A DNA stretch of 59,589 nucleotides, taken from assembly GCA_003134785.1 (NCBI GenBank), contig PLCN01000024.1, positions 1-59,589 on the forward strand, in the 5' to 3' direction. Positions 5,358 to 8,300 of this stretch are shown here, piece after piece. The notes under the pieces were generated by a model that saw only the letters and a list, made by a program, of their open reading frames with translations, was not told where the DNA came from and searched no databases. The stretch comes from Spartobacteria bacterium (GTDB lineage: Bacteria; Verrucomicrobiota; Verrucomicrobiia; Chthoniobacterales; UBA10450). Each line of letters opens with the position of its first letter. Within the stretch, counting starts at the first letter, position 1. The position numbers and the translations under genes were made by a program.

Positions 5358-8300
5358 ATGTTCTCCGAAATCCTCCATCCTCTCGAAGCGTTGATGCGCG
5401 AGCGCATCGTCGTGCTCGATGGCGCGATGGGCACGATGGTCCAGCAATACCAGCTGACTGAATCCGACTATCGCGGCGAGCGGTTCAAAGATTGGAAAGG
5501 CAAAGATCTAAAGGGAGGCCTCGAACTCTTGCTCCTGACGAAGCCTGCCGTCATCGATGAAATCCATACGCGGTATCTCGAAGCCGGCGCTGACATCATC
5601 GAAACGAACACTTTCAGCGCCACGACGATCGGGCTGCATGATTTTCTTTTTCAAGGCGAACCGGAAAACGGACGAAAAGATCCGGAGTTTTTTCAACGCG
5701 TGGTCGATGATGCCGGCTTCAGCGCGCTCGTGCAGGAGATAAATCTTTCAGCCGCGCGCGTGGCTCGTCATGCCGCCGACACGGTCGCGAACGCGACCGG
5801 GCAACGCCGCTTCGTCGCGGGATCGCTCGGTCCGCTGCCAGTGACCGCATCGCTTTCGCCGGACGTGAACGATCCCAGTTTTCGCGCGGTGACCTTCGAC
5901 CAAATCCGAAAGGCCTACGGGGAACAGGCCGCCGCGTTGATGGAAGGTGGCGTCGATCTCTTAATGGTGGAAACCATTTTCGACACCCTCAACGCGAAAG
6001 CCGCCATCGCCGCCATCACGGAGCTTTTCGAAAAATCCGGCAAGACGGTCCCGCTGATCATCTCCGGCACGGTGACCGATCGGTCCGGGCGAATCCTGAG
6101 CGGTCAGACGGTGGAAGCATTCCTCACCTCAATCGCGCACGCGAAGCCGCTCGTGGTGGGCTTGAACTGCGCACTCGGACCCGGCGAGATGGAACCCTAT
6201 ATCGAAGAGCTGGCGCACGGCACCTCTCTCTACACGAGCGCTTATCCAAACGCGGGTCTGCCTGATCCGCTGTCGCCCACTGGTTTTCCCGAGACGCCGG
6301 AAAGCCTGGCGCCCCAGCTGCAAAAGTGGGCGAGAAATGGTTGGCTGAACATCGTGGGCGGATGTTGCGGAACGACCCCCGATCACATCCGCGCGATCAC
6401 TGATGCAGTCCGTGATTGCGCGCCGAGGAAAATTCCGGGGAGCGCACGCGCCTCGCGTGTTGTTTCCGGCGCCTCGCCGGAAATTTCAGAAGACGTCCAT
6501 TACAACAAACGACATCTTCCGCACTTCGAGCGCCCGTGGGGGAAGTATGCTGTCACGTTCTCGACTCATCAACGCCGCCAACTTACCCCGAGCGAACGGG
6601 ATATCGTTTTGAAGAGCATCCTATATGGGCACGAAGTTGGACAATATGAATTGTACGCCGCGTGTGTGATGCCGGATCACGCCCACTTACTTTTCGAGCC
6701 ACAGCCAAAGCAACAAGATGCCGAGAGTGGGACTGTCTTCTGGCCGTTGAGCGAGATTCTTCAAGCGATCAAATCGGCAACCGCCCACCGTATTAATAAG
6801 GCTGTCGGAATACAAGGACCGGTTTGGGAACGAGAGTCATTTGATCGGTTGATTCGTTCTGAATCTGATTTGCAAGAAAAGTTTTCCTACATCTGCCGCA
6901 ATCCTTGGGAGTCGAAAGTCGCTGCGCAGGGTGAAGATTATCCGTGGTTGTGGACGCCCGAGAGATCTTCGGCGAAGGCGCCGAAGGCAGCACGCGAGGC
7001 GCGTGCGCTCCCCAGCGACGGAGATGACGCGACCAGCGATGATGGCGCATTGCAGCTCTCGGGCCTCGAGCCTTTGAACATCACACCCGAAATGGGTTTC
7101 GTGGTCGTCGGCGAGCGGACGAACATCACGGGCTCGCCACGTTTTTCGAAACTGATCCTCGCCGGCGATTTCGAGGCGGCGCTCACAGTCGCACGGCAGC
7201 AGGTCAAAGGCGGCGCCAACATTCTCGACGTCAACATGGACGAAGGAATGATCGATTCCGAAGCGTCGATGACGAAGTTTCTGAATCTAATCGGGAGCGA
7301 GCCCGAGATTTCGCGCGTGCCGATCATGATCGACAGCTCGAAATGGAGCGTGATCGAAGCTGGCTTGAAATGCGTCCAGGGCAAACCGGTCGTGAATTCG
7401 ATCAGCTTAAAGAACGGCGAAGAGGAATTCCTGCGCCAGGCTGCACTCGTTAGGCGGTACGGCGCGGCGGTGATCGTGATGGCATTCGATGAAAACGGGC
7501 AAGCCGACAGCCTGCTGCGGCGGATCGATGTTTGTGCCCGCGCTTACAAACTTCTGACCGAGCGCGCGGGCATTCCGCCTAACGACATCATTTTCGATCC
7601 GAACGTTCTCACGGTTGCGACCGGTCTCGAGGAACATCGCAATTACGCGGTGGATTTTATCGAAGCGGTGCGGTGGATCAAAGCTAACCTGGCGGGGGCG
7701 CGCACCAGCGGTGGCCTCAGCAACATTTCGTTTTCGTTTCGCGGAAACAACGCCGTACGCGAGGCGATGCATGCGGCGTTTTTGTTTCACGCCATCCAGG
7801 CGGGGCTCGACATGGCCATCGTCAACGCCGGTCAACTGGCCGTTTACCAAGAGATCGAGCCTGAGCTGAAAACCCGCGTGGAAGATGTGCTGCTCAATCG
7901 GCGGGATGACGCGACAGAGCGTCTGGTCGATTTCGCGGAGAGCGTCAAAGCGAGCGAGAAAACGCCGATTGAAAAAGAGGCATGGCGGCATGCGCCGGTG
8001 GAGGAGCGTCTTTCCCACGCGCTCGTGAAAGGGATCGTCGACTTCATCGAGCCCGATACGGAGGAAGCACGCGCTAAAAGCAAACGGCCGCTCGATGTGA
8101 TCGAAGGTCCGCTCATGGCCGGCATGAGCGTGGTGGGCGATTTGTTCGGAGCCGGCAAAATGTTTTTGCCGCAGGTGGTGAAGAGCGCCCGCGTGATGAA
8201 AAAGGCGGTCGCTTATCTGCTGCCGTTCATGGAAGCGGAGAAAGACGCGGACGCGAAGCCGCGGGCGCGCATCGTCATGGCGACGGTGAAAGGCGACGTG

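Follow-up and report, generated by a model that had tools for sequence, protein, structure and literature searches.

RAYT transposase domains nested in frame within methionine synthase and other conserved enzymes of Verrucomicrobiota

The window analyzed here is a stretch of 59,589 nucleotides (contig PLCN01000024.1 of the Spartobacteria bacterium assembly GCA_003134785.1), which is part of contig C15 in a 4.39-Mb genome. It contains metH, the gene for cobalamin-dependent methionine synthase, and inside metH lies an element made of a REP-associated tyrosine transposase (RAYT) domain between inverted repetitive extragenic palindromic (REP) sequences. The features concerned are the following.

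5358..9887, + strand: metH, cobalamin-dependent methionine synthase, the host frame (1509 aa); a single open frame, NCBIfam NF007024 at 1946 bits
6437..7013, + strand: REP-RAYT-REP element carried in frame by the linker (site 1) that joins the homocysteine and folate modules; recognized by frame, Pfam and inverted arms, with other inserts there in congeners
6437..6482, + strand: left REP arm, GGGGAG plus the hairpins GCACGCGCCTCGCGTG and CCGGCGCCTCGCCGG (identified by eye), within the translated frame; inverted-repeat search
6498..6962, + strand: RAYT (Y1/HUH) core domain; 265.8 bits with the profile of lineage A (see below), Pfam Y1_Tnp, NCBIfam NF047646 at 79.8 bits (cut-off 80)
6678..6686, + strand: HUH motif, H441-A-H443; in the all-lineage alignment the first His is kept in 127/130 rows and the second in 130/130
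6888..6890, + strand: catalytic Tyr, Y511; Tyr in 111 of the 116 rows that are not gapped here (14 truncated rows set aside)
6976..7013, + strand: right REP arm, an inverted copy of the left arm; inverted-repeat search

A preliminary description of the window had placed an intact RAYT domain with inverted REP ends in the metH linker, and this was borne out by Pfam and by the arms themselves. In a Pfam scan of MetH, Y1_Tnp (residues 396-484) falls between S-methyl_trans (18-351) and Pterin_bind (585-823), and the REP arms at 6437-6474 and 6976-7013 are inverted and 89% complementary. Read in frame, the codons of the insert span 6438-7013, and the metH frame is continuous through both REPs and the RAYT, with no stop codon between the start of the insert and the resumed host sequence and no frame break. 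The residue numbers H441, H443 and Y511, worked out by hand, were correct. As had also been described, neither an own start nor an own stop codon is visible; the first in-frame Met of the insert is contained in the HUH motif itself, and there is no in-frame GTG or TTG upstream of the RAYT core. Judged from the sequence, the transposase would apparently be made only as part of MetH, as proposed. metH is single-copy, with one match in its own genome at E ≤ 1e-50 (query, the C-terminal 938 aa).

The insert is not an intein, in agreement with the earlier view: no intein or Hint splicing family was found in MetH or the insert with Pfam at E ≤ 0.01, and this candidate was rejected for want of a splicing domain. 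The preliminary description had further raised the possibility that these elements are selected to be translatable in the host frame. For the REP arms this need not be assumed, because both arms were stop-free in the metH frame in 82% (0.816) of dinucleotide shuffles; their openness is therefore not evidence, and it follows from base composition with no selection for translatability required. The RAYT lineage overall, however, is bound to host frames. The evidence is thus the nesting of a whole RAYT, repeated across many hosts, and not the openness of the arms. Chance openness holds for the REP arms and was rejected for the overall nesting pattern.

The insert has the HUH motif and catalytic Tyr of a RAYT, and taken alone it scores 34.2 bits with the IS200/IS605-type domain Y1_Tnp (Pfam cut-off 23). 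With NF047646 (REP_Tyr_transpos; cut-off 80), the RAYT in MetH reaches 79.8 bits and a second one in RecG of the same genome 72.6. Six nested relatives gave 59.8-79.8 bits, five others (L231, L236, L243, L244 and L247) lay above the cut-off at 82.0-94.9 bits, and L165 had no match at E ≤ 1e-15. The only solved relative found by sequence was TnpArep (PDB 4er8, 1.3e-5). The flanking inverted REPs belong to a genomic REP family: the first 23 bases of the left arm occur 51 times in the genome at ≤ 3 mismatches, and a control occurs 0 times. Where a GTAG-type tetranucleotide would be expected beside the REP hairpin, the REPs of the window have GGGGAG and the related REP-V class has GGGTAG. Since no start or stop codon of its own sets the insert apart as a gene, we treat it as a nested variant rather than a standard RAYT gene.

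The insert type is not confined to this genome. The family search covered 83 genomes; among the matches listed, frame and host were determined for all rows at E ≤ 3e-45, leaving aside five weaker partial rows (G045:C14, G074:C412 twice, G074:C246 and G063:C196) and most of the distant rows. The nearest named relatives of the insert were Verrucomicrobiota, many of them metagenome-assembled genomes (MAGs) labelled Verrucomicrobia or Chthoniobacterales; the named loci were the best 80 of 332 confirmed stretches in a collection of 84,980 species. Together, the family loci and the 80 named loci make 140 distinct loci. A quick tree was built from 130 cores, with 10 loci omitted as too short or without the anchor motif; 27 of its 127 inner branches were starred. 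Lineage A forms a clade of 105 rows (98* SH-aLRT), from Verrucomicrobiota or Kiritimatiellota where the rows are named, and 97 of the 105 lie in host frames. The hosts are RecG (43), alanyl-tRNA synthetase (AlaRS) at site A (27) and site B (4), MetH at site 1 (9) and site 2 (5), threonyl-tRNA synthetase (ThrRS, 6), PriA (2) and CarB (1), with no host for the remaining 8. Host labels were assigned from motifs picked by eye and recall, with representatives then checked against NCBIfam, and some nested frames reach a contig end, so that the host there is seen in part. A strain-specific accident was rejected, since the insert type recurs across genomes.

A profile search across 213 genomes of the order gave the same picture; here a long open frame served as a proxy for nesting, and hosts were examined at the fetched loci. 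Of 89 matches of at least 150 bits, 80 lay in frames ≥ 450 aa long, among them all 17 from families other than that of the window, as did 39 of 45 weaker matches (75-93 bits, E ≤ 1e-20; three lineage-A fragments excluded). Among the distant matches listed, many occupy frames of ~120-260 aa and are standalone; those in long frames that were fetched fell into a second clade of 13 rows (99*), with CarB (6), TsaC (3), a valyl-tRNA synthetase (ValRS, 1) and a RarA-like gene (1) as hosts and two contig-end frames without a recognized host. The CarB site is at about the same place in both lineages. From these observations, the insert in metH probably belongs to an autonomous REP/RAYT lineage whose members live in frame inside conserved enzymes, as passenger domains.

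The second lineage (L156-L167, in CarB, TsaC, ValRS and the RarA-like gene) is distant from lineage A and was nested independently. Distant RAYTs of Planctomycetota are nested as well, L236 (Phycisphaerae) in a methyltransferase-like frame and L243, L244 and L247 among PurH, isoleucyl-tRNA synthetase and ValRS; the first host looks like a DNA methyltransferase by our own reading, NCBIfam having named only the RAYT.

Where copies were counted, the host gene is the only match. In all 10 genomes with a nested AlaRS, including Ereboglobus sp. PH5-10, the nested gene is the sole AlaRS copy, counting the two matches of G090, which share one frame, as one and accepting that the match of G085 spans one TAA. 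Across 29 nested RecG proteins, RecG motifs such as GDVGSGKT and DEQH show no variation. The window genome has five RAYT-like matches, three of them inside long host frames: MetH, RecG (910 aa; like metH, recG has one match in the genome) and a TsaC-type L-threonylcarbamoyladenylate synthase (583 aa; named through NCBIfam on a homologue). The other two are standalone (163-170 aa) and distant (24-28% identity). Thus, the RAYT search of this genome turned up neither the same RAYT as a standalone gene elsewhere nor any other standalone source of lineage A.

The eight unnested lineage-A copies are also informative. They sit at two pilus-gene operon junctions. Six (L093, L096, L100, L125, L140 and L145) lie, as judged by eye, between the same two genes of a pilus operon, whose products at L096 belong to the Amuc_1100 (just below the cut-off) and Amuc_1099 (above the cut-off) families. 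The other two (L133 and L135) lie between two pilus-ATPase-like genes, the upstream one at L135 having PilB as its best match, below its cut-off. In seven of the eight, an ATG lies just beyond the REP, where it either overlaps the stop codon of the upstream gene or closely follows it; the L100 junction has a GTG and no ATG, and this copy is frameshifted. By comparison, an ATG within 25 codons before the core was found in only 5 of 101 anchored lineage-A frames (11 of 112 set aside), and under a looser count 8 of 104 had an ATG, in three cases within host sequence, and 45 had a GTG or TTG. Since ATG is rare and the GTG/TTG codons are scattered, the element is without a conserved initiation signal.

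If the nested RAYTs were domesticated, as the preliminary description allowed, each site would have gained its domain once and kept it by vertical descent for some benefit to the host. Purifying selection and retention across the lineage fit this idea, as do L121 and L123, where RAYT and host have matching silent divergence (0.57 vs 0.46-0.54), and RAYTs are characterized in PMC8049555 as vertically inherited domesticated transposases. Comparison within the genus of the window argues otherwise. The insert is neither strain-specific nor fixed: MetH site 1 has a RAYT in 2 of 8 genomes, and in the other six (L250-L255, from G001, G002, G003, G004, G006 and G007) it has other in-frame palindrome-like inserts, identified by eye. 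With several such repeats at one place, the metH linker looks like a hotspot for translatable repeats. In RecG, 5 of the 8 genomes have a RAYT, G003 and G007 are empty, and G004 has an apparent decayed REP. The clearest case of turnover is seen in G020 and G023, where the RecG C-terminal parts are 98% identical in protein and the flanks 92% and 96% identical in DNA, yet the RAYTs at the same RecG site are only 55% identical and the REP classes differ along with them. In L101 and L103, the RAYTs are closer than their hosts (silent divergence 0.49 vs 1.34-1.36), and at MetH site 1 the identities of RAYT and host do not correlate (-0.07). On the tree, host labels require 23 changes, or 31 with the unnested group included, for which shuffled labels require 79 on average; this exceeds one origin per host, and starred groups mix AlaRS sites A and B (100*), AlaRS and ThrRS (99*), and AlaRS and RecG (97*). 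Domestication is therefore not favoured, in view of the patchiness, the same-site swap in RecG and the host changes, and simple vertical domestication was rejected on the patchy MetH site 1, the swap and the weak or absent correlation between RAYT and host. We consider domestication unlikely. The insert may instead be a cost-free or mildly useful resident.

A slightly less probable alternative is that the inserts are inert, having landed at random and survived only where they were in frame and tolerated in a loop; the domain would be dead, and its low ratio of nonsynonymous to synonymous change (dN/dS) would reflect the need for a soluble fold. The median dN/dS of nested RAYTs is 0.112, from 42 same-site pairs that are not independent, and that of the hosts is 0.090 (68 values); among 255 same-site pairs with identity above 70%, these 42 were the usable ones, all others being saturated or without silent change. 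The nested domains are thus under purifying selection. Inertness would agree with the conserved nature of the host genes, with REP arms that are stop-free by composition, and with the changes of the first His or the Tyr found in some rows. Against it, the three catalytic columns are among the most conserved, with 0, 12 and 17 of 152 columns more conserved than the second His, the first His and the Tyr, respectively. In addition, the RAYT search turned up no standalone lineage-A source in the window genome, which nevertheless contains 104 REP-Q and 23 REP-M copies at ≤ 1 mismatch.

It could also be imagined that the insert is skipped at the level of RNA or ribosome, either by intron-like removal or by bypassing aided by the REP hairpins, which the inverted repeats at both ends might suggest. 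This is very improbable: the frame is open, selection acts on the peptide, no Rfam family was found at the site at the gathering threshold, and no common take-off or landing codon was apparent by eye in the two MetH inserts compared. Finally, that assembly or binning joined metH to a separate RAYT locus, which had been named as a possible refutation and to which the MAGs that make up most of the relatives might lend colour, can be practically dismissed because the same gene-specific sites recur in many assemblies among the 140 distinct loci. One of these loci, L219, is on a 2.7-Mb contig, and another, L192 (Ereboglobus sp. PH5-10), comes from a record without a MAG mark, though it lies at a contig end.

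The passenger-domain reading would have the nested RAYTs active, and REP copy numbers bear on this. Three REP classes pair with three RAYT types. Across the 83 genomes, the median number of copies with and without the matching type was 16 vs 2 for REP-M (p=1.2e-5), 28 vs 1 for REP-Q (p=2.1e-6) and 21 vs 2 for REP-V (p=8.2e-7), and the enrichment holds in genomes at least 90% complete (p=9e-4, 6e-5 and 3e-4, respectively). In this test, genomes with untypeable RAYTs were counted as without that type, and the typed genomes G045, G060 and G066 carry only the operon-junction copy. In the genus of the window, RecG carries a REP-Q RAYT in three genomes, which have 104, 71 and 67 REP-Q copies; the numbers in other members of the genus are 2 (G003), 0 (G004), 2 (G005), 0 (G007) and 16 (G006).

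A plausible mechanism can be derived from these data. The element is a RAYT coding sequence between inverted REPs, apparently relying on the host promoter, ribosome-binding site and start codon, which would express the transposase as an extra domain. The linkers encoded by the REPs would hold the RAYT in a permissive loop, such that the enzyme keeps working, and the passenger may be tolerable because the RAYT is small. The tethered RAYT could then work in trans on its own REP family, as the copy-number correlation suggests. Comparison indicates that over time elements shift to other host genes and that different RAYTs replace one another at a given permissive site. Copies lying in frame within conserved genes might persist because a startless RAYT would be translated there, and because truncation or frameshift would deprive the host of an enzyme for which it has no second gene; such protection would be intein-like, without splicing. 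In its strongest form, the proposal is that the elements of lineage A and of the second lineage, which have neither start nor stop codon and do not splice, can exist only inside genes. Their nuclease domain would be made solely as a tethered part of an essential enzyme, or else from the start site of an operon neighbour, with the elements replacing each other in a homing-like manner at a few loop sites per genome and driving the REP populations of Verrucomicrobiota. We would give this fuller version about an even chance.

Several observations weigh against the passenger-domain reading. REP copy number also associates, more weakly, with non-matching RAYT types (p 0.0021-0.0091 in five of six cross-tests; 0.23 in the sixth), so shared ancestry contributes to the correlation, and G001 has 26 REP-M copies with no REP-M RAYT match. 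The inheritance is in part vertical, given that RAYT and host identities correlate in RecG (0.30) and AlaRS (0.37), weakly, each value being above 999/999 permutations. A GTG or TTG precedes the core in 35 of the 101 anchored frames, at scattered positions (≤ 6 frames share one), and a Shine-Dalgarno-like tetramer precedes 3 of 46 such codons; internal initiation may thus occur in single copies. The first His or the Tyr is changed in 8 of 130 rows, and the low dN/dS could result partly from folding constraint. Lastly, four copies look broken: L092 has a stop following the insert, L100 and L233 are frameshifted, and G074:C412 contains stops.

The nested elements share with RAYT/REPtron systems (TnpA-REP, the IS200/IS605-related Y1 transposases) the HUH motif and Tyr, Pfam Y1_Tnp, NCBIfam REP_Tyr_transpos scores near or above the cut-off, and flanking inverted REPs. 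They differ in that the nested copies are without a conserved start or an own stop, form a domain of a housekeeping enzyme and appear to change host gene. According to PMC8049555, a RAYT is a gene present once per genome, passed on vertically and not copying itself, and one RAYT survey discarded long proteins as fusions or errors (PMC6006769). In-frame REPs are already known from genes of Opitutus terrae (uvrA), Rickettsia and others (PMC3733652). These too are translated palindromes, of the GTAG type, in repair and other conserved genes, including those of a verrucomicrobial species, but they are repeat-only inserts of ~20-82 residues, and the RAYTs in that text are genes flanked by REPs, not domains of host proteins. 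The Rickettsia palindromic elements, as summarized in a passage of PMC10969869, are likewise mobile palindromes in frame in unrelated protein genes. The likeness is one of lifestyle only; they are ~150 bp long, and that passage mentions no transposase.

Inteins with homing endonucleases offer a parallel in strategy, since there too conserved genes carry, in frame and at recurrent sites, a mobile nuclease domain that is shielded from truncation. The nested RAYT, in contrast, has no splicing domain in Pfam and, as far as can be told from the sequence, is retained in the mature protein. Searches of the open-licence literature yielded no account of host frames with a nested RAYT; within this literature in-frame REPs are known and the nested-RAYT lifestyle was not found described. 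If correct, the passenger-domain reading would mean that transposases can be maintained long-term as working domains of aminoacyl-tRNA synthetases, RecG or MetH without splicing. Such natural insertions of large domains at recurrent permissive sites of essential enzymes could be of use for protein engineering, and with nested RAYTs the question of RAYT movement as a unit could be tested directly.

Two further in-frame inserts are present in metH of the window, both found by the inverted-repeat search.

8837..8961, + strand: REPIN-like pair without a RAYT, in frame, at site 2 before the activation domain
9319..9375, + strand: third in-frame palindrome, of the GTGFQPV... type, in the activation-domain region; small

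Site 2 holds a RAYT in relatives (L098, L101, L103, L104 and L071). At L103 (3-3692), a single metH frame contains two RAYTs, one per site, the first cut by the contig end. At L092 (contig C401 of G074), which is counted among the 97 nested rows, a TGA followed by an ATG directly after the RAYT insert splits metH, possibly into two coupled proteins. In the window genome there are 51 REP-M-like sites, and loci were obtained for 30 of them; by eye, the only recognized coding frames among these were MetH (L010, L011, L021 and L022) and an apparent UvrA (L016, L017, L027 and L028), and REPINs without a RAYT thus seem mostly not nested in this genome. The apparent uvrA (L016/L017, named by eye; contig C25 of the window genome, G000, at ~433-437 kb) has in-frame REPINs, two REP-M pairs and one of the REP-Q type, comparable to uvrA of Opitutus terrae.
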